Assembly: GCA_018650465.1 (NCBI GenBank)
Contig: JABIFY010000132.1
Span: forward strand, 1-57,142
Direction of reading: 5' to 3'
Length of the DNA: 57,142 nt
DNA from: Alphaproteobacteria bacterium
GTDB taxonomy: Bacteria; Pseudomonadota; Alphaproteobacteria; UBA2966
In this document: positions 33,333-45,445 of the stretch, piece by piece
How positions within the stretch are numbered: position 1 is the first letter of the stretch
Layout of the letters: each line of letters opens with the position of its first letter
The notes under the pieces: generated by a model
The model's database searches: none
What the model was told of the DNA's origin: nothing
Seen by the model: only the letters and a program-made list of their open reading frames with translations
Made by a program: the position numbers and the translations under genes

Positions 33333-33833
33333 TTAGATAAACAGATTGATATCTGCCTTGAGCGCATCTTCTATATAGGTAGCCGCCCCGCCCAGATCAG
33401 GGCCTTCGATCAAATCTTTTAAGTCATATTCGAACATGTCCATGGTCATTTGACAGGCCACCATATTAACGTCGGCCTCCACTGCCAGATCACGCAGTTC
33501 TTCAATCGAGGCAATGCCTTTTTTCTTGATCAGGTTCTTCATCATGCCCGTCGCCATGGCATCCATGCCGGGAATCATCGGCATGATATTTGGCATCTTC
33601 ATGTGGCCACCCATTATCGGCATCGCCATGCCGGGATTGCCCAGAGGTGTCACAGCCAGATCAAGTTTTTTCTTCAGCAAATTCAGGCCATAGAAGGTGA
33701 AGAACATGGAAACGTTCAACCCCATTGCGGCCGCTGTCGTCGCCAGGATGAAGGGCGGATAGGCCCAATCCAATGACCCTTTGGTCACAATCAATGACAT
33801 GCTCTTGGCATTTTCAAGACTTTGTTCGCTCAT
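33333..33833 (-). CDS. DsrE2-like sulfur-carrier protein
   Basis: A 166-residue DsrE/DsrF-fold protein of the DsrE2 type. Features are KGSLDWAYPPFILATTAAAMGLNVSMFFTFYGL, a Met/Pro/Gly-rich insertion (about 75-105) and the conserved cysteine in MVACQMTMDMFEYDL (about 132). DsrE2 proteins move sulfane sulfur together with TusA and rhodaneses in sulfur oxidisers and are usually membrane-associated. No tusA is visible here, but a rhodanese lies at 10677 under a matching operator. The start at 33833 has GGGG upstream; the ATG at 33857 does not. Confidence 0.85.
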   Translation of the reverse strand: MSEQSLENAKSMSLIVTKGSLDWAYPPFILATTAAAMGLNVSMFFTFYGLNLLKKKLDLAVTPLGNPGMAMPIMGGHMKMPNIMPMIPGMDAMATGMMKNLIKKKGIASIEELRDLAVEADVNMVACQMTMDMFEYDLKDLIEGPDLGGAATYIEDALKADINLFI

Positions 33834-34039
33834 TTCCCCATATCCCTTCAATTTCAATCAAACCAGCATAGAACCAACCAAATGGTGGCCCTGAAACCAA
33901 TATCTGCCATGGCGGTAATCATGGCTTTGCCCGCAAATTTTTAATTATTGTTGTTTCACACCAAACATTAGTAAATTTGCATATAAATAGAAAGCTCTAA
34001 TTTCACCCCTCACGCGAACGTTATGCTTAAAAAATAACG
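33834..34039. other. Intergenic region upstream of the DsrE2 gene
   Basis: About 200 AT-rich bases. ATTAG and CTAAT occur at about 33967 and 33995 but do not fit the spacing of the sulfur operators. It probably holds a promoter for the DsrE2 gene. No RNA or hairpin was recognised. Confidence 0.35.
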
Positions 34040-34558
34040 TCAGGGAACGGTCAACACGATGATTTGTGGGTTGGCGTGCCGCAAATTTATCACCATTCCG
34101 GGCCAGGTGCTGACCAACTTTACCCGCCCGGATTGTGGTGCCCGCAAGGTGGCATGATCGTACCGCCATTGCAAAATTGTTTGCCGTGCCTGCGCCTTGG
34201 CCAATCGGGCGAGGGCTTCATCCCTGGTAATCTGAGCCGTATCAAGCTCGACTTTGGACAAAGAGACGGCGTCAAACTGTTCCCGGGCATAGTCAAATCG
34301 GCGGGTCGCGAGGTTCACGATTTTCTGTGAGACCGCGACCTCAGCCAGGACTGCTGTCATTCTTGCCTTGATGCGGATGGTATCCAAAACAGCGATGGCT
34401 TGTCCCTTACTGACTTTATCACCAGCGGTTACCAAGACTTTCTCGACCACACCTGACAGGGCGAAACCCAAGGCCTGGTCCTGGGCATGTGCAGCCACAG
34501 TTGGCGCCATCATCAAGAACAGCGCACCGACAAAAGAGGTAAAATTATTGATCCGCAA
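34040..34558 (-). CDS. Short membrane-fusion (HlyD/RND adaptor-like) protein
   Basis: A 172-residue exported protein with a signal peptide (ALFLMMAPTVAAHA). Half of a lipoyl domain (ALSGVVEKVLVTAGDKVSKGQAIAVLD) is followed by a helical hairpin (about 58-135) and the second lipoyl half (ATLRAPQSGRVKLVSTWPGMVI). It ends just after, at IIVLTVP. The beta-barrel and membrane-proximal domains of normal adaptors (350-400 residues) are missing. The start overlaps the TolC stop by 14 bases. No inner-membrane transporter gene is adjacent. Confidence 0.75.
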   Translation of the reverse strand: MRINNFTSFVGALFLMMAPTVAAHAQDQALGFALSGVVEKVLVTAGDKVSKGQAIAVLDTIRIKARMTAVLAEVAVSQKIVNLATRRFDYAREQFDAVSLSKVELDTAQITRDEALARLAKAQARQTILQWRYDHATLRAPQSGRVKLVSTWPGMVINLRHANPQIIVLTVP

Positions 34559-35909
34559 TTTTCAGATCCTCCAGAAAATTAATCGCAAAACTTTGGTTCA
34601 GGGGGCGCCCAAGCAGAACAGCCAATTGCAGTCCGGCAATTCGATATGCTCCCAAAGCCCGAACAAGTTCCGTTTCAATATGGCCAATACGTGTGGTGGC
34701 ACCACCTACAGAAGCTTCCCGATCCTGGGATCTTTGCAATTGCTCCAGCAACAAACGCTGGCGTCCGGCTTTGTAGGCGAAACGCGCAGCAGTCAGACGC
34801 ATGCGGGCGTCCTGGCGCGCAAGATTGGCCAGATGGGTTTGCCGCACCAGGCTTCTATTGATCGCCGCGATGTCGGCGTCCAGCTGGCGTCTTTTTGCCA
34901 GCCACTGCGCTTCTTCAGAAGATTTAACGCCGCCATCATAAAAAGGCACGACCAGGCGCGCGCCCAACGCCCATTCATCCCGGCCACGCAAATTACGGGT
35001 ACTTTCATTTACCCGACCGTAAGCCTCTAGCTTTGGAAACAAACCAGAGGCATTTGCCCGGGCCTGCATGGCATCACGTTTAGCCCTCAGGGACTGTGCC
35101 AGAGGATGGGCTTTCTGAACAAGTTCGACCATTTTTTGCAGATCAACCTCAAAGACTTCGTCTTCTGGCACATCAGGGGTCAGCGTTGTTTCAGTAAAGG
35201 ACTTGCCCGTCAGCTCTTCGAGCCGCAAGCGAATGCCAAGATTACTGCTTTTGGCTTTTGAATAAACATATCGGGCTGTGCCACTTTCGGCGCGTGCTTC
35301 CATCAACTCGATGGGATTTGCATCCCCCACAACGTCTTTTTCTTCCAGTCGCACCGCCCGAAAAAAGGCAATTGTATTCTCTTCCTGCAAGGCCTGAACT
35401 TCCAGATCCGAGGCATGCAGTTCGTAATACAAAGCCATGCCTTCCAGCACCAGTCTACTGAGCGTGATTTGCTGATCGAATGCCTGCGCCATTATTTCTG
35501 CACGGGCGGCATCAATTCCACCGCGACTGCGGCCAAAGTCATAAACCGGCTGAACAATTTCCAAAGAACCAAGTATATCGCTGTTTCTTGTTTCCACGGC
35601 CCGCATGGAAGAAAAGCGCTTGCCGTCCAGACGACCGGTTAATCGCGGCTTCAGGGCCGCCAGGGCTTGATCCAGCCTGGCCGCGGCAATATCCCGCGAC
35701 GCCACATCGCGGGCAAGGAGCGGGCTGGAGGCCAGCATCTGAATCAGCTCTTGTGGTGTTGGCATCGACAACGCGGCAACGGGCGCTGACGGCAAGACCA
35801 TCAGCGAAACAGCAATTACCGAAAGGCAATTTCGCAATCCACGCAACCTATTGCTCCATCTGCCAACGGACGAGCGACTTGCCGGTCTTGAAGATTTTTT
35901 CATGGACAT
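34545..35909 (-). CDS. TolC-family outer-membrane protein
   Basis: An outer-membrane efflux protein of about 454 residues. It has a signal-like stretch (CLSVIAVSLMVLPSAPVAA) and then two TolC repeats of long helices, with ELIQMLASSPLLARDVASRDIAAARLDQALAALKPRLT and EVDLQKMVELVQKAHPLAQSLRAKRDAMQARANASGLFPKL as repeat starts. The open frame extends to 36029, but that lies inside the upstream soxW gene. The ATGs at 35909 and 35903 give a basic N-terminus before the signal, so the start is uncertain by some 40 codons. It overlaps soxW by about 60 bases, implying translational coupling. Confidence 0.8.
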   Translation of the reverse strand: MSMKKSSRPASRSSVGRWSNRLRGLRNCLSVIAVSLMVLPSAPVAALSMPTPQELIQMLASSPLLARDVASRDIAAARLDQALAALKPRLTGRLDGKRFSSMRAVETRNSDILGSLEIVQPVYDFGRSRGGIDAARAEIMAQAFDQQITLSRLVLEGMALYYELHASDLEVQALQEENTIAFFRAVRLEEKDVVGDANPIELMEARAESGTARYVYSKAKSSNLGIRLRLEELTGKSFTETTLTPDVPEDEVFEVDLQKMVELVQKAHPLAQSLRAKRDAMQARANASGLFPKLEAYGRVNESTRNLRGRDEWALGARLVVPFYDGGVKSSEEAQWLAKRRQLDADIAAINRSLVRQTHLANLARQDARMRLTAARFAYKAGRQRLLLEQLQRSQDREASVGGATTRIGHIETELVRALGAYRIAGLQLAVLLGRPLNQSFAINFLEDLKIADQ

Positions 35910-36387
35910 AGCGTCCGCTGGCGATAAACGTCGCAACATCCTGGTATCCCGGAATGCGTGCCGCAATCTTGCCGTCCGTATCGTAAAAGACAAAGGTCGG
36001 CGTGCCACGCACGCGCAGGCGTCGGGCAAAGGCCTTTTGGGTGATCAATTCGCCACCAGGTGTGGTTAACTCCAGATCCCCTTTGATGTCCTCTTCGATC
36101 ATGACAAATTTGTCAGAGAAATATTTGGCAATTTTTGGATGTGGGAAAATCCGCTCACGCATTTTATTGCACCAGGGGCAGCCTTCTTCATGAAACATGA
36201 CGATAAGGCGTTTACCGTCTGCGGCAGCATCTTCAATCTCGGTCGCCAGATCGTTGTCCAGGCTGATGGTCTGGAATTCCGCCCGCAACTCTCGGGTGCC
36301 CACAAGCAGAACGATCGCAACGACGATTAACATGCTGATCCAGGATCGGCCTGCTACAAACCCTGGATTTATCATCAAATTCATCAT
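35848..36387 (-). CDS. soxW: SoxW-like periplasmic thioredoxin (first copy)
   Basis: A 179-residue protein with an N-terminal membrane/signal segment (SWISMLIVVAIVLLVGT) and a thioredoxin fold with active site CPWC (about residues 70-73) in MFHEEGCPWCNKMRE. A cis-Pro occurs in VRGTPTFVFYDTDGK. It resembles SoxW, a periplasmic thioredoxin reduced by SoxV. First gene of a minus-strand set with TolC and the short adaptor, and divergent from the YeeE-type transporter, with the ATATTAGG site between them. Confidence 0.8.
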   Translation of the reverse strand: MMNLMINPGFVAGRSWISMLIVVAIVLLVGTRELRAEFQTISLDNDLATEIEDAAADGKRLIVMFHEEGCPWCNKMRERIFPHPKIAKYFSDKFVMIEEDIKGDLELTTPGGELITQKAFARRLRVRGTPTFVFYDTDGKIAARIPGYQDVATFIASGRYVHEKIFKTGKSLVRWQMEQ

Positions 36388-36491
36388 TCTATTTCCCGGA
36401 TCACATTAATGATCGCTTGTCGTCAGTCGGTGTTCGTCTATTTCTGGATTGGAGTGTGGCCTGCTTTTCAGGTTCTCACCAGATAGTTTTT

Positions 36492-36511
36492 ATATTAGGG
36501 TATCATTATGT
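36492..36511. promoter_or_regulatory. ATATTAGG-type operator in the soxW/soxT divergent region (site C)
   Basis: ATATTAGGGTATCATTATGT: the left half matches site A at seven of eight positions and TTAT occurs in the shared right-half position. It lies 105 bases from the soxW start and about 93 bases before the transporter start, so it can control both. Confidence 0.55.
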
Positions 36512-36592
36512 TCAAAAAATACATGACTTCAAGCATGTAATTCGGCCGCAAAATTCATTTGAATTTGAAAGGCCAGAGGGGGAGACCTGAAT

Positions 36593-37696
36593 ATGGAAGA
36601 CACGCCAATCACCACGATTGTTGGAATGTGGGGTTTTGCTGCCGGCATCATTTTTGGTATCACAGCGCAGCGGACAAATTTTTGCACCATGGGGGCCATA
36701 TCAGACGCCGTATTCATGGGAAGTTATAACCGCATGCGAGCTTGGGTCATGGCCATTGCCGTGGGCATCGGCGGTAGTCAGATATTACACATGACGGGCC
36801 AGGTCGATCTGAGCGGGGCAATTTTTCTGACGACAAATCTGGGTTGGGTCGGCGCAATCGTCGGCGGCTTGCTCTTCGGATTTGGCATGACCATGACAGG
36901 AGGATGCGGCAACAAAACACTGGTGCGATTGGGGGGCGGAAACCTGAAATCGCTGATTGTTGCAATGGTAATGGGTATTGCCGGTTACGCGACCTTGCGC
37001 GGCATTATTGGTTTGCTTCGTGTAGAATTCGAGGCCGTAACAGTCGTGGACCTCAGTGAACGGGGCCTGACAAGCCAGAGCATGGTGGAGATGGTGGCCT
37101 CCGTTATCGGCATGGAAACCGAGGCCTTGCGTCCGGTGATGGTCGCCCTTGTTGTGCTCGCCCTGTTGGCCTGGTGTTTCAAAAGTGGCGAGTTCAGATC
37201 CTCGGGACGTGACATGATAGCCGGGCTGGTCATCGGCCTGATGATCCCGCTGGGCTGGTACATTACGGGCAACATCGGCAACGACGAATTTGATCCCGTA
37301 CCTCTGTTTTCCTTCACCTTCGTCTCACCCACAGCCGACTCTGTGCAATATTTGATGACCTTCACTGGATCAACCATAAATTTCGGCGTTGCTGCAGTTG
37401 GCGGTGTCCTTGTCGGCTCCTTTCTGGCGGCCAAGCTGTCCGGTGAGTTCCATATTGAATCTTTTGCTGACGCGGCCGATCTGAAACGCCATCTTTTTGG
37501 CGCCTTCATAATGGGTGTCGGTGGCATCGTTGCCCTGGGCTGCACCATTGGCCAGGCCTTGACCGGCATGTCGACGCTGGCCCTGAGCTCGCTCATTGCG
37601 TGGATGTCATTGCTGGCGGGTGGCTATCTTGGCATGAAATATCTGGAAGAAGGCAGCCTTGGCGGTGCCCTGAGGGCAACATTCAGTCGAAGTTAG
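36593..37696 (+). CDS. YeeE/YedE-family transporter (SoxT-like)
   Basis: A 367-residue integral membrane protein with about nine or ten membrane segments. The signature cysteine motifs of the thiosulfate/sulfur transporter family YeeE are all present: TNFCTMGAISD near residue 25, MTGGCGNKTLVRLGGGN near 103 and LGCTIGQALTGMS near 322. In sox loci this protein is called SoxT and is thought to import a sulfur compound for signalling or metabolism. It faces soxW across the ATATTAGG site. Confidence 0.85.
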   Translation: MEDTPITTIVGMWGFAAGIIFGITAQRTNFCTMGAISDAVFMGSYNRMRAWVMAIAVGIGGSQILHMTGQVDLSGAIFLTTNLGWVGAIVGGLLFGFGMTMTGGCGNKTLVRLGGGNLKSLIVAMVMGIAGYATLRGIIGLLRVEFEAVTVVDLSERGLTSQSMVEMVASVIGMETEALRPVMVALVVLALLAWCFKSGEFRSSGRDMIAGLVIGLMIPLGWYITGNIGNDEFDPVPLFSFTFVSPTADSVQYLMTFTGSTINFGVAAVGGVLVGSFLAAKLSGEFHIESFADAADLKRHLFGAFIMGVGGIVALGCTIGQALTGMSTLALSSLIAWMSLLAGGYLGMKYLEEGSLGGALRATFSRS

Positions 37697-37779: not shown

Positions 37780-38358
37780 ATGCAAAAAATTGCCGCCATA
37801 CTGCATCTGGAAGGACCCGTGTTTGACGTCGATACACAAGCCCGTCTGGCGTTTGCTGAAACAGTGCATCGCAATGCCGGACTTGTCGTCGGGGAAACAG
37901 ATCAGGGCCGGGTCATTCTTTTCATGCGGGCGAAGTCGGCGGCCATATGCGCTGTAGAGTTACGGCGCCTGGACGAAACCTCCGCAAACGATCTGAACAT
38001 AGCGGCCTTGCTGCGCAGCGCTATCAGTCTGGGGCCCGTCACAATTGGTCAGGAAACCGTTGATGGGGACGCCGTCGAAATCGCGGCGAACCTCGCTACA
38101 ATCCTCGAGCCCGGAGATATTTTTGTATCGGCAACCTGCCGCATGGCCCTGGCGGACAAGATACCCGTTGACTACACGCAGTTGAGAGAAAATCCATCTT
38201 CGGGTTATCGTCTGGTTGTCGATTCCAACGAAGTCCTCTCGGCGATCCGGCATCAAAACCCGGTGGCACCTGCCTGGAGCTGGAAAGTCACCATTCCTAT
38301 GTTCAGCATGATAATCTTAATCACGCTGGCATGGTTTTGGTTCAATACGCCGGATTAA
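37780..38358 (+). CDS. Degenerate class III cyclase-homology protein with C-terminal membrane anchor
   Basis: A 192-residue protein. Residues about 20-150 look like a class III nucleotide cyclase domain: LLRSAISLGPVTIGQ followed by GDAVEIAANLATILEPGDIFVSATC corresponds to the family's G-d-x-VN-x-AARL-x-x-x-x-x-PG stretch. The transition-state Asn and Arg are replaced (Glu and Asn), and the metal Asp pair is not clear, so catalysis is unlikely. The end has one hydrophobic segment (about 167-187), a tail anchor with almost the whole protein in the cytoplasm. It follows the transporter by 83 bases on the same strand. The cyclase assignment is by motif similarity. Confidence 0.6.
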   Translation: MQKIAAILHLEGPVFDVDTQARLAFAETVHRNAGLVVGETDQGRVILFMRAKSAAICAVELRRLDETSANDLNIAALLRSAISLGPVTIGQETVDGDAVEIAANLATILEPGDIFVSATCRMALADKIPVDYTQLRENPSSGYRLVVDSNEVLSAIRHQNPVAPAWSWKVTIPMFSMIILITLAWFWFNTPD

Positions 38359-39380: not shown

Positions 39381-39833
39381 ATGAAAATGCACCGTTTAAT
39401 CGGGGCGGCTGCGATTGTTGCAGCGAGTATCAGTCTGACGCTCGTTGCAAATGCCGGAACCGTCTCATATCAGATTGTCGATGATGGCATTCCAAAATCA
39501 TTAACCGGCACCGCCGGTAACGCCCAGGCAGGCCGCAAGGTTGCCTACAATCGCAAGACCGGCAATTGCCTGGCTTGCCACAAGGCGCCCATTCCGGAGC
39601 AGCAGTTCCACGGCGAGATTGGCCCCGACCTTAAAGGTGTCGCCAGTCGTTATAGCGAGGCTGAACTGCGTTTGCGGATTGTCGATTCCAAAAAGACAAA
39701 TAGTGACACCATTATGCCGGCGTTCTATCGCGACACTGGTTTCACACGTTTGCAGAAAAAATGGGTTGGCAAATCAATTCTCAAGGCCCAGGAAGTTGAA
39801 GACCTGTTGGCCTATCTGATGACACTCAAGTAA
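39381..39833 (+). CDS. soxX: SoxX, monohaem cytochrome c of SoxAX
   Basis: A 150-residue periplasmic cytochrome c. A signal peptide (IGAAAIVAASISLTLVANA) is followed by the haem site CLACH (Cys63, Cys66, His67), with Met112 (TIMPAFY) as the likely sixth ligand. SoxX accepts electrons when SoxA links thiosulfate to the SoxY cysteine. First gene of soxXYZA, with AGGGAGG a short distance before the ATG. Confidence 0.95.
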   Translation: MKMHRLIGAAAIVAASISLTLVANAGTVSYQIVDDGIPKSLTGTAGNAQAGRKVAYNRKTGNCLACHKAPIPEQQFHGEIGPDLKGVASRYSEAELRLRIVDSKKTNSDTIMPAFYRDTGFTRLQKKWVGKSILKAQEVEDLLAYLMTLK

Positions 39834-39877
39834 CAGTTTGCAAACTGAACTTGATTGCAAACAAAGGAGTAAATGAA

Positions 39878-40354
39878 ATGAAGCGAGAACGTAACACAGG
39901 CCTCAGCCGCCGCGGATTTTTCCGCGCAGCCGGAGCCGGTGCCGTCGCAGCAGCCGGTGTCAGCCTGATACCGGTGACGGCCTTGGCAGATGCCGCCAAG
40001 ACAAATGCCGCCATCGACAAGCTCACCGGCGGGACCGCGACCAAATCCGGTCGTATCAAGATGAAAACGCCGATCATTGCTGAAAATGGTGCCGTTGTAC
40101 CGATCATCATCAGTGTCGACAGCCCAATGACTGACAGTGATTACGTCAAGTCGCTGAGCGTGTTCGTACAAAACAATCCGAGCCCGGAAGTCGCTGCTTT
40201 TAACTTCACGCCCGCCTGCGGTGCCGCTGAAGTCAAAGTGAACTGCCGTATGGCGAAGACATCCGCTGTCGTTGCCGTAGCAATAATGAGCGACGGTTCT
40301 GTTTATAAGGCGGAAAAAACCGTCAAGGTAACTATCGGCGGCTGCGGCGGCTGA
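39878..40354 (+). CDS. soxY: SoxY, sulfur carrier subunit
   Basis: A 158-residue exported protein with a Tat signal (SRRGFFRAAGAGAVAAAG, twin Arg at 11-12) and the C-terminal GGCGG motif whose Cys156 carries the thiosulfate-derived sulfur chain on a flexible arm. It pairs with SoxZ, encoded 24 bases later, in the periplasm. The start at 39878 has AAAGGAG upstream and gives a complete Tat signal; the earlier in-frame start at 39851 would put nine non-signal residues in front. Confidence 0.96.
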   Translation: MKRERNTGLSRRGFFRAAGAGAVAAAGVSLIPVTALADAAKTNAAIDKLTGGTATKSGRIKMKTPIIAENGAVVPIIISVDSPMTDSDYVKSLSVFVQNNPSPEVAAFNFTPACGAAEVKVNCRMAKTSAVVAVAIMSDGSVYKAEKTVKVTIGGCGG

Positions 40355-40378
40355 TCGAGTTTTAGGGAGAATAAATCA

Positions 40379-40699
40379 ATGGCATCCGCACGCTTGAAAG
40401 TCCCCAAAAAAGCGAAAAAAGGGGACATCATCACGGTCAAGAGCCTGATAAAACACAAGATGGAAACAGGTCAACGCAAGGGCAAGGACGGTAAACCGAT
40501 CCCACGCATGATCATCAAGAAAGTTTCCGCCACCTATAATGGCGTTGAAGTTTTTTCAGCTGACTGGGCTCCGGCAGTTTCTGCAAACCCTTTCCTTTCT
40601 TTCAAGGTTCGGGCCACGGAATCAGGCACGATTGAACTCAAGTGGACTGACGACAACGGCAAAGTCGTTTCCCAGTCTGCAAAAATCACCGTTCAATAA
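40379..40699 (+). CDS. soxZ: SoxZ, SoxY partner
   Basis: A 106-residue immunoglobulin-like protein without a signal peptide, normal for SoxZ, which is co-exported with SoxY through the Tat system. Typical segments are KAKKGDIITVKSLIKHKMETGQRK, IPRMIIKKVSATYNG and a final TDDNGKVVSQSAKITV. The ribosome site TAGGGAGA precedes the ATG. Confidence 0.96.
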   Translation: MASARLKVPKKAKKGDIITVKSLIKHKMETGQRKGKDGKPIPRMIIKKVSATYNGVEVFSADWAPAVSANPFLSFKVRATESGTIELKWTDDNGKVVSQSAKITVQ

Positions 40700-40739
40700 T
40701 AAGTTCAATAATAATTTGAGTATTAAGGGGGACTAAGCC

Positions 40740-41552
40740 ATGAAGATGAGGCAACTACTCCTGGCCCTGACATTTGCGACGACAGGCACACTTGCTGTCA
40801 CGGGCCTCGGTCTGGGCCTTGTTATCGGCCAGACTACTGCTGCGAAAGCCGAAGGCATTCGCTCCGGCTATAGTTACGCGACCAAGGAAACCCAAGGCCT
40901 TCAGGATGACGATATGTCAAACCCGGGCTATCTGTGGGTGGATACAGGCGAAGATTTGTGGAGCAAGGCAGAAGGCGATGCAGGCAAGTCCTGTAACGAC
41001 TGTCACGGCGATGCCGCTGAGTCCATGAAGAAAGCCGGCGTCAGTTATCCAAAATACAAGGATGACATCGGCAAGCTGCAAAATATCGAGCAACGCATCA
41101 ACCAGTGTCGCACGGATAACATGAAAGCCAAGGCCTGGAAGTGGGAATCGAGCCAGTTGCTGGGGATGACAACCTACGTCCGCAACCAATCAAGAGGACT
41201 GCCTGTTTCCGTCGCAGTTGACGGTCCGGCAGCACCATTTTTTGCCAAGGGCGAGGCGTTCTTCAATCAACGTCGCGGGCTTTTGGATATGGCTTGCAAA
41301 CACTGTCACGAAGACAATGCGGGCAACAAGATCCGGGCCAACGTGCTTTCTGAAGGACAGATCAACGGTTTTCCGGTCTATCGCCTGAAGTGGGGCAAGG
41401 TCGGGTCTACACACCGTCGTTTCCGTGGTTGCAACAAGCAGGTTCGGGCGAAACCTTTCAAAAATGGTTCCGATGAATACGTCAATCTGGAACTTTATGT
41501 TGCCTGGCGCGGTCGCGGTCTTGGGGTCGAAACCCCTGCCGTTCGTAACTGA
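40740..41552 (+). CDS. soxA: SoxA, dihaem cytochrome c of SoxAX
   Basis: A 270-residue periplasmic cytochrome. A signal peptide (about residues 1-38) is followed by two haem sites, CNDCH (85-89) and CKHCH (186-190), and by the active cysteine Cys231 in RFRGCNKQVRA, which becomes the persulfide-type haem ligand. This is the two-haem SoxA type. SoxAX forms the disulfide between thiosulfate and SoxY. The gene closes the soxXYZA unit and is followed by a terminator. Confidence 0.95.
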   Translation: MKMRQLLLALTFATTGTLAVTGLGLGLVIGQTTAAKAEGIRSGYSYATKETQGLQDDDMSNPGYLWVDTGEDLWSKAEGDAGKSCNDCHGDAAESMKKAGVSYPKYKDDIGKLQNIEQRINQCRTDNMKAKAWKWESSQLLGMTTYVRNQSRGLPVSVAVDGPAAPFFAKGEAFFNQRRGLLDMACKHCHEDNAGNKIRANVLSEGQINGFPVYRLKWGKVGSTHRRFRGCNKQVRAKPFKNGSDEYVNLELYVAWRGRGLGVETPAVRN

Positions 41553-41574
41553 CCGACTTCGCCATCGACAAATT

Positions 41575-41606
41575 GGGGGTGTGCTGAAGGCGCACCCCTT
41601 TTTTTT
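41575..41606 (+). terminator. Rho-independent terminator between soxA and soxB
   Basis: GGGGTGTGC, a 5-base loop, GCGCACCCC and then eight T residues. It lies 23 bases after the soxA stop, so soxB needs read-through or its own promoter in the 57 bases before its ATG. Confidence 0.9.
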
Positions 41607-41663
41607 CTGACATAATCTAATTTCAAGCCCTACCATCAAAACAGAACAACCGGAACCAGAGAC

Positions 41664-43346
41664 ATGTTAACCCGTCGAGATTTTATGCAGGTTGCTGCTG
41701 CAACCGCCGTCATGACAGCCAGACCCGGCAGCCTGGGCGCTGCCACCGCGAAGCTGACCCAGGAAGACCTGCTGTCTTTTGATAGTACAGGCCAGGTCAC
41801 TTTGCTGAATTTCACAGATTGTCATGCCCAGCTGGTGCCGCTTTATTTTCGCGAACCTTCCGTCAATCTGGGAGTCGGGGAGGCCAACGGTCTGCCACCG
41901 CATTTGACCGGTAAAGATTTTCTCAAACATTTTGAATTGAAAGGTGGCAGCAAGGCCGCCTACGCCTTGACGTCTGATGATTTTAACAACCTTGCCCGGC
42001 AGTGGGGCCGTATCGGCGGCATGGACCGCATGGCAACCCTGGTCAAGGCGATCAGGGCCGAACGGCCATCCAATACCCTGTTGCTGGATGGCGGCGATAC
42101 CTGGCAAGGCTCATATACATCTCTGAAAACCCGTGGCGCGGATATGGTCAAGGTCATGAATGCCCTGGGCGTCGAGGCCATGACCGGGCACTGGGAATTC
42201 ACCTATGGCGCTGAACGTGTCGAGGAACTGATCGCCACCCTGGACTTTCCTTTTCTGGCCGGTAACGTCACAGACAAAACCTGGGATGAGGACATTTTTG
42301 AACATACAAAAATGTTCGAACGTGGTGGCGTCAAGATCGCTGTCATTGGTCAGGCTTTCCCCTACACACCCATCGCCAACCCTCGTTACATGATGCCCGA
42401 TTGGTCCTTTGGCATTCAGGAGGAAAAGGTTCAGGAGCGCGTCGATGCGGCCCGTGCAGCCGGGGCTGAACTGATTGTCCTGAACAGCCACAACGGCTTT
42501 GACGTTGATCGCAAAATGGCAAGCCGGGTGACCGGCATCGATGTCATATTGACCGGCCACACCCACGATGCCATTCCCACCGCGATCAAGGTGAGTAATA
42601 CCTTGCTGATCGCTTCAGGCTCGCACGGCAAGTTCCTGGCCCGACTGGACCTGAAGGTGGAGAACAAAAAGGTCGTTGACTACCGCTTTAAACTGATCCC
42701 CGTTTTTTCTGATGTGATAACACCGGATCCGGAAATGGCCACCTTGATCAAGGAAATCCGTGCCCCTCATGCCGCTGAGATCGACCGGGTACTGGGCCGC
42801 ACAGACAGCCTTCTTTATCGCCGTGGCAATCTTAACGGCACCTTCGATGATCTGATTTGCGATGCCTTGTTGACGGAGCGGGATTCGCAAATAGCTCTGT
42901 CGCCCGGCTTTCGCTGGGGGGCAACTTTATTGCCAGGCGATGATATAACAGCGGACACGCTATATAGCCAAACCGCAATCACTTACCCCAACGTCTACCG
43001 AAATGAAATGACAGGTGCTTTCCTGAAGGAAATTCTCGAAGACGTCGCCGATAACCTTTTCAACCCGGACCCCTATCTGCAACAGGGCGGTGATATGGTG
43101 CGCGTGGGCGGCATGGGCTATGCCATCGATATTGGCCAGCCGATCGGCAAACGCATCAGCGACATGACTTTGTTGGCCAGCGGCGAAAAGATTGATCCGG
43201 CAAAAACCTATATTGTTTCTGGTTGGGCCTCGGTGAATGAAGGCACGGAAGGGCCGCCGGTCTATGATCTTGTCTCAAAATACATTACTGACAGGAAAGT
43301 GATCCGGCTTGAGCCGAACCGCAGTATCAAAGTCCGTGGAATTTAG
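41664..43346 (+). CDS. soxB: SoxB, thiosulfohydrolase
   Basis: A 560-residue dimanganese enzyme of the 5'-nucleotidase/metallophosphoesterase family that releases sulfate from SoxY-bound thiosulfate. The N-terminus has a Tat-like signal (TRRDFMQVAAATAVMTARPG). Metal-site motifs are NFTDCHAQLVP, LLDGGDTWQGS, GHWEF, NSHNGFDVD and LTGHTHDA. The C-terminal domain begins around 370 and ends with the 5'-nucleotidase-like TYIVSGWASVN. Length and order are normal for SoxB. Confidence 0.96.
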   Translation: MLTRRDFMQVAAATAVMTARPGSLGAATAKLTQEDLLSFDSTGQVTLLNFTDCHAQLVPLYFREPSVNLGVGEANGLPPHLTGKDFLKHFELKGGSKAAYALTSDDFNNLARQWGRIGGMDRMATLVKAIRAERPSNTLLLDGGDTWQGSYTSLKTRGADMVKVMNALGVEAMTGHWEFTYGAERVEELIATLDFPFLAGNVTDKTWDEDIFEHTKMFERGGVKIAVIGQAFPYTPIANPRYMMPDWSFGIQEEKVQERVDAARAAGAELIVLNSHNGFDVDRKMASRVTGIDVILTGHTHDAIPTAIKVSNTLLIASGSHGKFLARLDLKVENKKVVDYRFKLIPVFSDVITPDPEMATLIKEIRAPHAAEIDRVLGRTDSLLYRRGNLNGTFDDLICDALLTERDSQIALSPGFRWGATLLPGDDITADTLYSQTAITYPNVYRNEMTGAFLKEILEDVADNLFNPDPYLQQGGDMVRVGGMGYAIDIGQPIGKRISDMTLLASGEKIDPAKTYIVSGWASVNEGTEGPPVYDLVSKYITDRKVIRLEPNRSIKVRGI

Positions 43347-44285: not shown

Positions 44286-44729
44286 TTACGGACGAACGTA
44301 GGCATACCCATTAGCCTGAAGTTCCATAATCCGGGTAACACCTGCCGGTACAACTTTTACACCGTCAATCAGAGCAGGCATTTTGCCAGATTTTTTGGCC
44401 ACCTTCTTCATGGTATTGCCACAGGCACTGAAGCTGATGCCTTCGCTCAAAGCCATGCTCATGACACGATCTTTTTGCTTTGATTTACCCGTCAACATGC
44501 CAAGTCCAGGGCCATAGGCGACGATTTCAACAACAGCACCAGGAATCGCTTTTTGCACATTTACAGCGTTATTCAAGGCAATCATCTGGGTACGCGGATC
44601 ATCCGTGCTCACCTGAATAACAAGATGGGTTTTCATGCTGTTCGTATCTGCAACAGCCGTCCCTGCCGTCAAAACAAAAGCAGTTGCCGCCAACACCAAC
44701 ATAAACTTCGATAGAACTGACCTGATCAT
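44286..44729 (-). CDS. Periplasmic DsrE-family protein
   Basis: A 147-residue protein with a signal peptide (LVLAATAFVLTAGTAVA) and a DsrE-fold domain: HLVIQVSTDDPRTQMIALNNAVNVQKA, VEIVAYGPGLGMLTG and a conserved cysteine in SFSACGNTMKK (about residue 104). Such exported DsrE proteins are often encoded in sox loci and may hold or relay sulfane sulfur in the periplasm, complementing the DsrE2 protein. It shares its strand with the second soxW 43 bases upstream, probably as an operon. Confidence 0.85.
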   Translation of the reverse strand: MIRSVLSKFMLVLAATAFVLTAGTAVADTNSMKTHLVIQVSTDDPRTQMIALNNAVNVQKAIPGAVVEIVAYGPGLGMLTGKSKQKDRVMSMALSEGISFSACGNTMKKVAKKSGKMPALIDGVKVVPAGVTRIMELQANGYAYVRP

Positions 44730-44772
44730 TATTATCTCTCCCTTTGGTTAGAGCGGAGCAAGCCTGTTAAGG

Positions 44773-45381
44773 CTAATCCCACAAATTCACACTTTTCCCC
44801 TGTGCTCTCAGTTCCTCGGCTTTTGCACTTAACCAACGTTGAAAACTGGGTTCTTTCACGTAACCTTTTTCCGCTGCATAAACAAAAATGTGTTTGAAAT
44901 GGAACGGTTTGAAATAGCCCGGCATCCGGACCACTTCTTTTCCCTTTTCATCAATAAAAAGAATGGTGGGTGTAAACATGACTCTATATTTGCGGGCAAA
45001 GTCTTTTTCGCTGAGAACCTGACCGTCAAAATCTGTAACTTCCTGGTCGCCCCACAAGTTCAACTGCACGACATCAAAGGTTTTTTTGATGTATTCCCTG
45101 ATATCGGCATTTTCGAAATTGACCCGGTGCATTTCGCGGCAATAGGGACAGCCTTTTTGCTCGAACAAAATTGCCAGGTGTTTACCTTGTTCATGCGCTT
45201 CACCAAGGTCATCCGCCATATCAAGAAAAGACGTATGTTTGAACCAGGGCTGGGTGTACATCCCGTCATCCCCAACCTTGGGTTCTATCTCAGCGGCCGT
45301 AGTCTGCGTGATGAACAACATAACGACCGCAAGGGCCGCTTTTGCAACTAGGGCCTTGTACATCGTTCGATTGACAACCAT
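44773..45381 (-). CDS. SoxW-like periplasmic thioredoxin (second copy)
   Basis: A 202-residue exported thioredoxin-fold protein. A signal peptide (LVAKAALAVVMLFITQTTAA) precedes the CPYC active site (about residue 78) in LFEQKGCPYCREMHR. A cis-Pro occurs in FTPTILFIDEKGK. It is somewhat longer than the first SoxW and has a C-terminal LSAKAEELRAQGKSV extension. The ATG at 45381 has GGAGG; an in-frame upstream start at 45432 does not. Site E lies 77 bases upstream. Confidence 0.85.
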   Translation of the reverse strand: MVVNRTMYKALVAKAALAVVMLFITQTTAAEIEPKVGDDGMYTQPWFKHTSFLDMADDLGEAHEQGKHLAILFEQKGCPYCREMHRVNFENADIREYIKKTFDVVQLNLWGDQEVTDFDGQVLSEKDFARKYRVMFTPTILFIDEKGKEVVRMPGYFKPFHFKHIFVYAAEKGYVKEPSFQRWLSAKAEELRAQGKSVNLWD

Positions 45382-45445
45382 CTTATCCTCCAGATTACGG
45401 CAAACTATCGTCATACAGTCTGCCACAACCAACGCTCTGTTTGGA

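Follow-up and report, generated by a model that had tools for sequence, protein, structure and literature searches.

The contig analyzed here (assembly GCA_018650465.1, contig JABIFY010000132.1; 57,142 nucleotides, the whole of which we refer to as the window) derives from a member of the Alphaproteobacteria (lineage UBA2966) and carries a sox island. Within this island we identified a unit of three genes on the minus strand, termed the trio, that encode in order a thioredoxin (35848..36387), a TolC-family outer-membrane factor (OMF; 34545..35846), and a mini periplasmic adaptor of 172 residues (34040..34558). An initial annotation of this DNA had placed the three genes at 34040-36387, and they lie where it put them. 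The thioredoxin has a signal peptide, a Thioredoxin_2 fold (Pfam PF13098, 3.6e-22) and a CPWC motif. The OMF matches Pfam OEP (2e-16) with two repeats, and the adaptor, read from a TTG start, consists of a signal peptide, a barrel-sandwich (lipoyl) domain and a two-helix hairpin. The trio is flanked by a divergent soxT/yeeE-like gene on one side and by dsrE2 on the other, and the surrounding island includes soxR, a soxS-like gene, soxXYZAB, and a ccdA/soxV-like gene.

The adaptor lacks much of what is found in a full periplasmic adaptor. An AlphaFold model, based on an alignment of 52 generic adaptor fragments, places strands at residues 27-58, helices at 61-96 and 102-134, and strands again at 137-170, after which the chain ends; pLDDT is above 90 over most of the fold. 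The model superposes on the barrel-sandwich domain and hairpin of AcrA (Foldseek, 2f1m_A: 5e-9, TMq 0.79, rmsd 1.5), and these two are the full-adaptor domains present in the window protein. No beta-barrel, membrane-proximal domain or lipobox is found in it, the chain stopping after the second lipoyl half. Consistent with this, the TIGR01730 (RND_mfp) match covers model positions 23-156 of 322 and scores 75.4 bits against a cut-off of 94.9, while a barrel-bearing relative (locus L254) passes the same model with 130 bits. The partial match and the predicted fold bear out the earlier description of an adaptor reduced to its lipoyl halves and helical hairpin. As modeled, the adaptor retains the parts that face an OMF and is without the membrane-proximal domain that meets a transporter. 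The OMF itself is predicted to adopt a TolC fold (pLDDT 79; Foldseek 2e-19 to TolC), and the outer-membrane component expected of a tripartite pump or type I secretion system is present at the locus.

The sole other member of the genus in our genome collection (G011, hereafter the congener) is syntenic with the window across the compared region. Its adaptor also has 172 residues, is 61% identical, begins at the same TTG and ends at the same alignment column with a different stop codon. The 14-base overlap between the OMF and adaptor genes, reported by the initial annotation, is present in the window and kept in the congener, as is the 180-base gap that separates the trio from dsrE2. Uncorrected pN/pS between the two species is lowest for the thioredoxin (0.19) and nearly the same for the OMF (0.33) and the adaptor (0.34), with synonymous divergence saturated. 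Because the adaptor is equally long in the congener and has a pN/pS of 0.34, the comparison of the two sequences indicates that it is under purifying selection, and fresh truncation or decay was ruled out on the same grounds. We also rejected readthrough into a longer adaptor: the TIGR01730 match ran seven codons past the TGA, but in the congener a TAA ends the frame at the same alignment column. A full-length adaptor in relatives had been named beforehand as the finding that would expose the window copy as a truncation; besides the equally short congener protein, none of the 43 trio adaptors described below has a membrane-proximal domain. It is very improbable that the trio is a functionless remnant of a tripartite pump since lost. 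Adaptor domains and a pump gene are indeed missing, but the adaptor is as constrained as the OMF at saturated synonymous divergence, its length and end are the same in the congener, and the missing domain is common to 43 loci.

Comparison with the congener also bears on the boundary between the thioredoxin and OMF genes. The OMF reading frame runs further upstream to other start codons, and an overlap of about 60 bases with the thioredoxin gene, as proposed earlier, depends on an ATG at 35909 or 35903. An alternative start, a TTG preceded by GGAG, directly follows the thioredoxin stop codon in both species (TAG-G-TTG at 35846 in the window), and the signal peptide is better from this TTG than from either ATG. 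Since a TTG behind GGAG beside the thioredoxin stop heads a good signal peptide in both species, the OMF probably starts at 35846, leaving a gap of about one base, and the overlap of 60 bases probably does not exist.

Searches with the adaptor or the OMF as a single sequence returned only generic adaptors of the resistance-nodulation-division (RND) type or only the congener, and distant relatives of the trio surfaced only in profile searches. A two-sequence adaptor profile was used first and a wider profile afterwards. With the former we found that three genomes from another class, which we take to be the Magnetococcia, have short adaptors adjoining an OMF gene, all with the same order of thioredoxin, OMF and mini adaptor beside cbb3 oxidase genes and ccoI. 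The wider profile brought in numerous genomes with a related unit from a third class, which we assume to be the Gammaproteobacteria. Here the three genes follow one another on one strand at 37 of the 40 top-scoring loci, and in genome G588 in addition; about 10 of 20 lower-scoring loci also carry the trio order. A TlpA-type thioredoxin gene precedes the trio in most gammaproteobacterial loci, and DsbD (with CutA) follows it in a few. One locus (L274 in genome G977) has an OMF and adaptor of the trio clade with TlpA upstream and no detected trio thioredoxin, and is perhaps a variant without this gene. Within the sampled class of the window, an OMF match at E <= 1e-12 was obtained only in the window genome and the congener (385 genomes, with the top few candidates scored per genome), and a thioredoxin-led search of this class gave no other SoxW-like locus with an OMF within 1.5 kb. 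Plasmids gave no OMF match. Synteny with the congener, the pN/pS of the adaptor, and recurrence in two other classes place the unity of the locus beyond chance.

The membrane-proximal domain is absent from all 43 trio adaptors, and nine of these are without the beta-barrel as well. The nine adaptors of the mini type extend 0-15 residues past the profile match and the other 34 extend 70-91 residues, which is room for the barrel only; most generic adaptors at 80 control loci have about 145-200 residues beyond the match. A lipobox-like motif occurs in one of the 43. RND genes lie near three trios, where they form separate operons, compared with 68 of the 80 generic adaptor loci. The 80 same-strand neighbours of the trios fall into 63 families, and no ABC, MFS or RND family recurs among the 25 largest of these, a set that covers part of the single-member families; the families that do recur are TlpA-type thioredoxins (22), response regulators (4), DsbD (3) and CutA (2). 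The window likewise showed no pump gene in a reading of its open reading frames over 57 kb, and the inner-membrane transporter that would mark a tripartite pump is found neither in the operon nor next to it. The initial annotation had remarked on the missing transporter and proposed a dedicated unit without a pump of its own, and the recurrence of the same gene order in Gammaproteobacteria and the three Magnetococcia-class genomes with no recurrent pump neighbour agrees with that proposal. The motif R-x3-L-x6-S, which mediates OMF docking at the hairpin tip, is present in strict form in 28 of the 43 adaptors. Isolated adaptor hairpins have been found to bind the OMF MtrE approximately fivefold more tightly than does the full adaptor MtrC (PMC4446572).

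A pump of the RND, MFS or ABC type encoded elsewhere could still use the OMF and the mini adaptor, the latter acting as a second, OMF-facing adaptor beside a full-length one. There is precedent in two-adaptor pumps of the TriABC type, which are mentioned in PMC4446572. The window genome encodes four complete RND transporters on contigs without an OMF hit, and most trio adaptors keep a beta-barrel that such a pump might engage. However, each of the four transporters already adjoins its own RND-type adaptor, OMFs are encoded on four other contigs of this genome, and one of these is a stand-alone TolC-like OMF. In addition, no pump accompanies the unit across the 43 trios, no adaptor among them has a membrane-proximal domain, and the trio OMFs form a clade of their own. 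We therefore regard a pump acting in trans as unlikely.

Phylogenetic analysis sets the trio proteins apart from their generic relatives. The trio thioredoxins form one clade (bootstrap 100, SH-aLRT 96) that is distinct from 33 other SoxW-like proteins, including the canonical SoxW-type thioredoxin encoded in the sox island of the window (44773..45432, minus strand), which groups with the other SoxW-like proteins. The window trio thioredoxin is 41-51% identical to the three Magnetococcia-class trio thioredoxins and 29% identical to the window's own SoxW. This grouping is not circular, because the loci were found through the adaptor. The name soxW given to the trio gene by the initial annotation thus does not hold, and by its position in the tree the protein is best described as a SoxW paralogue. 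The trio OMFs are also a single clade apart from generic OMFs (SH-aLRT 99; quick tree, no bootstrap). Gene order, membership of the thioredoxin and OMF clades, and an adaptor without membrane-proximal domain together define the trio, and the window locus has all of these features. Both trees share a split between the window genus together with the Magnetococcia-class sequences and the Gammaproteobacteria. The grouping with the Magnetococcia-class trios and the near-absence of the unit from the sampled class of the window suggest that the genus gained the trio by horizontal transfer. A locus encoding a mini adaptor (L262) is nested among barrel-bearing gammaproteobacterial loci in both trees, and for this reason the beta-barrel was probably lost more than once.

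The trio is associated with sulfur oxidation at the level of the genome. The window encodes a SoxB that scores 859 bits against TIGR04486 (cut-off 550), and SoxB is over the cut-off in 39 of 39 module-positive gammaproteobacterial genomes (38 with the full trio, plus G977) compared with 13 of 39 genomes without the module (Fisher p = 5e-11), the negatives having been hand-picked before their SoxB status was known. Counted by gammaproteobacterial family, which is the one count that lessens phylogenetic dependence, SoxB is found in 28 of 28 positive and 11 of 36 negative families (p = 2e-9). In the Magnetococcia class it is found in three of three trio-positive and 4 of 45 negative genomes (p = 0.002), and in the window's family in two of two trio-positive and one of five negative genomes. 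The sulfur link drawn by the initial annotation therefore stands for genomes, and it does not extend to the locus outside the window genus. We found no SoxC in the window genome (98.9% complete), the congener, or the three Magnetococcia-class genomes, all of which appear to encode a truncated Sox system with SoxB and without SoxC; sulfane sulfur would therefore be expected to accumulate. Cysteines are scarce in the trio OMFs and adaptors, and we saw none conserved among the trio sequences. For this reason the thioredoxin probably acts on neither protein, and a cargo or a Sox protein is the more likely target.

The genomic context in the other classes invites a different explanation, in which Cu(I)-thiol complexes leave through the OMF and mini adaptor while the thioredoxin reduces the thiols, so that the unit aids cbb3 assembly and metal tolerance and not sulfur traffic. 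In all three Magnetococcia-class genomes (loci L178, L179 and L180) the trio lies next to ccoI or immediately upstream of it, with the cbb3 oxidase genes close by; L180 has a DsbD_2/SafE-like gene between the adaptor gene and ccoI. In the Gammaproteobacteria, cutA and dsbD lie 3' of the trio in the same direction at two loci (L242 and L247), and a dsbD-like gene is found at a third (L267). This arrangement ties the trio by gene order directly to periplasmic thiol reduction and metal tolerance. However, no metal gene is near most gammaproteobacterial trios, the window copy lies in a sox island, and the association with SoxB is not predicted from copper alone. Disposal of copper or another soft metal is in our estimation distinctly unlikely.

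We propose, tentatively and with slightly less than even confidence, that Sox-type sulfur oxidizers have in the trio a dedicated accessory module, which provides a pump-independent, thiol-redox-linked channel between the periplasm and the outside that serves Sox sulfur chemistry. The proposal builds on the three-gene unit and its conservation, the separate clades, the missing adaptor domains, the operon's lack of a pump gene, and the association with SoxB across genomes. The OMF would form a trimeric channel in the outer membrane. The mini adaptor, soluble in the periplasm, would form a complex with it by docking hairpin-first at its periplasmic mouth and would keep the channel open without an inner-membrane pump. 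The thioredoxin, together with TlpA in the Gammaproteobacteria, DsbD in a few of them, and presumably CcdA/SoxV in the window, would keep a sulfur or thiol cargo reduced or in persulfide form and hence able to pass. The likeliest cargo may be a Sox intermediate, that is, sulfane sulfur or polysulfide, or else a small thiol that carries it, which would be exchanged between the outside and the periplasm, where SoxYZ and SoxB act. The more specific version, a widespread system in which a pump-less OMF conduit held open by a minimal adaptor and a dedicated thioredoxin moves such a Sox-derived cargo across the outer membrane, is possible and in our judgment rather doubtful.

An open OMF might instead let thiosulfate, tetrathionate or polysulfide in to the Sox enzymes of the periplasm, in uptake or surface chemistry with no export at all. 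The periplasmic location of these enzymes and the tracking of SoxB by the trio would suit such a role, and the sequence fixes no direction. However, OMFs are known as exit ducts, general porins pass thiosulfate, and the thioredoxin would be left without a clear role; a channel for uptake or surface chemistry is quite improbable.

Several observations weigh against a pump-independent channel for Sox chemistry. Outside the window genus the trio was not found in any sox cluster; where one gammaproteobacterial contig holds both, 34 kb to 2 Mb separate the trio and soxB, and the Magnetococcia-class trios sit at a Cu-ATPase gene (ccoI). The SoxB comparison uses a profile built from Sox-bearing organisms and takes the top-scoring hits as positives. 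Loss of SoxC was rejected as the deciding trait, as SoxC is missing from 37 of 44 module-positive and 11 of 13 module-negative SoxB genomes. The docking motif at the hairpin tip is absent from the adaptors of the window and the congener, and docking in this genus would therefore have to differ. The beta-barrel retained in most gammaproteobacterial trio adaptors may contact a transporter. To our knowledge, the known OMF-adaptor pairs require an energised transporter, and an OMF that is always open would leak. Overall, the observation made in the initial annotation is partly confirmed, indeed for the most part correct, and its interpretation is partly supported. The idea of a dedicated sulfur-related channel unit with no pump is substantially strengthened, short of proof, and the corrections concern the gene name, the overlap and the restriction to the sox locus.

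The sequences that surround the trio contain additional features. The SoxT/YeeE-like transporter gene that the initial annotation had noted opposite the trio is indeed there (36593..37696, plus strand; Pfam PF04143, 7.5e-64) and is probably outside the trio proper. The intergenic region between the two (36388..36592) contains an inverted repeat at 36517-36542 (AAATACATGACTTCAAGCATGTAATT), a possible operator. A SoxR-like operator common to the trio and sox promoters was considered and rejected, as the matches were weak and unconvincing. Downstream of the trio, dsrE2 encodes a DsrE2 sulfur carrier (33333..33857, minus strand; NF047629 over its cut-off), and the non-coding region upstream of it (33858-34039) is strongly conserved in the congener (AGCATAACGTTCGCGTGA...AAATTAG.GCTTTCTATTTATATGCAA) and likely includes a promoter or operator. 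Between soxT and a glutamine-amidotransferase-like gene is a gene (37780-38358) with weak adenylate-cyclase-like matches, a C-terminal hydrophobic segment and no Pfam hit, which is kept in the congener. The genes soxX, soxY, soxZ, soxA and soxB follow at 39381..43346 on the plus strand, the first four named from reading the open reading frames alone. Beside the canonical SoxW gene is a gene for a periplasmic DsrE-like protein with no Pfam match (44289-44747), and both are kept in the congener.

In the current view, an OMF and its adaptor work as components of an energised tripartite pump, and a conserved pair that has neither a pump gene nor the pump-facing domain of the adaptor would break that rule. 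If the proposal is correct, the trio would be a case of an OMF and an adaptor functioning with no transporter in the inner membrane, and it would offer extracellular zero-valent sulfur a route through proteins. The transport principle would be categorically new only if pump-independence holds. Because the trio accompanies the Sox pathway in more than one class, it provides a concrete gene set for the question of which path zero-valent sulfur, polysulfide or their carriers take through the outer membrane. The set is compact, its limits are clear, and many sulfur oxidizers have it.

In full-text literature outside subscription journals we found no description of such a unit of thioredoxin, OMF and mini adaptor. 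The closest known systems are RND tripartite pumps such as AcrAB-TolC and MexAB-OprM, whose TolC fold is shared by the trio OMF and whose adaptor AcrA superposes on the barrel-sandwich and hairpin of the mini adaptor. However, the trio has no transporter gene and no membrane-proximal domain, 9 of its 43 adaptors have no beta-barrel, a single one has a lipobox candidate, and its thioredoxin is a fixed partner. Reduced adaptors are known: EmrA of Aquifex aeolicus is an MFS adaptor (PMC4158417) that resembles the barrel-keeping trio adaptors in having no membrane-proximal domain, but it has a long coiled coil and is part of an MFS pump, whereas the trio mini adaptors are also without the barrel. 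BesA is an adaptor without a hairpin that works with a pump (PMC4446572). In the SilC-EmrA1-EmrB system of Francisella the OMF gene adjoins the adaptor gene as in the trio; we considered SilC and EmrA1 as a known pump-less pair and rejected them, since a dedicated MFS pump gene, emrB, is present, and no thioredoxin belongs to the system (PMC8149597). The trio thioredoxin resembles the thiol reductants SoxW, SoxS and SoxV as a periplasmic thioredoxin fold with a CxxC motif encoded in a sox island, but the trio thioredoxins are a separate clade bound in gene order to the OMF and adaptor. Finally, the CusCBA system near thiocyanate dehydrogenase (PMC6504805) brings an OMF and HlyD-type adaptors together with a thioredoxin-like gene, again in a sulfur oxidizer, and differs from the trio in its CusA pump, its two adaptors and the sulfur enzyme that it accompanies.

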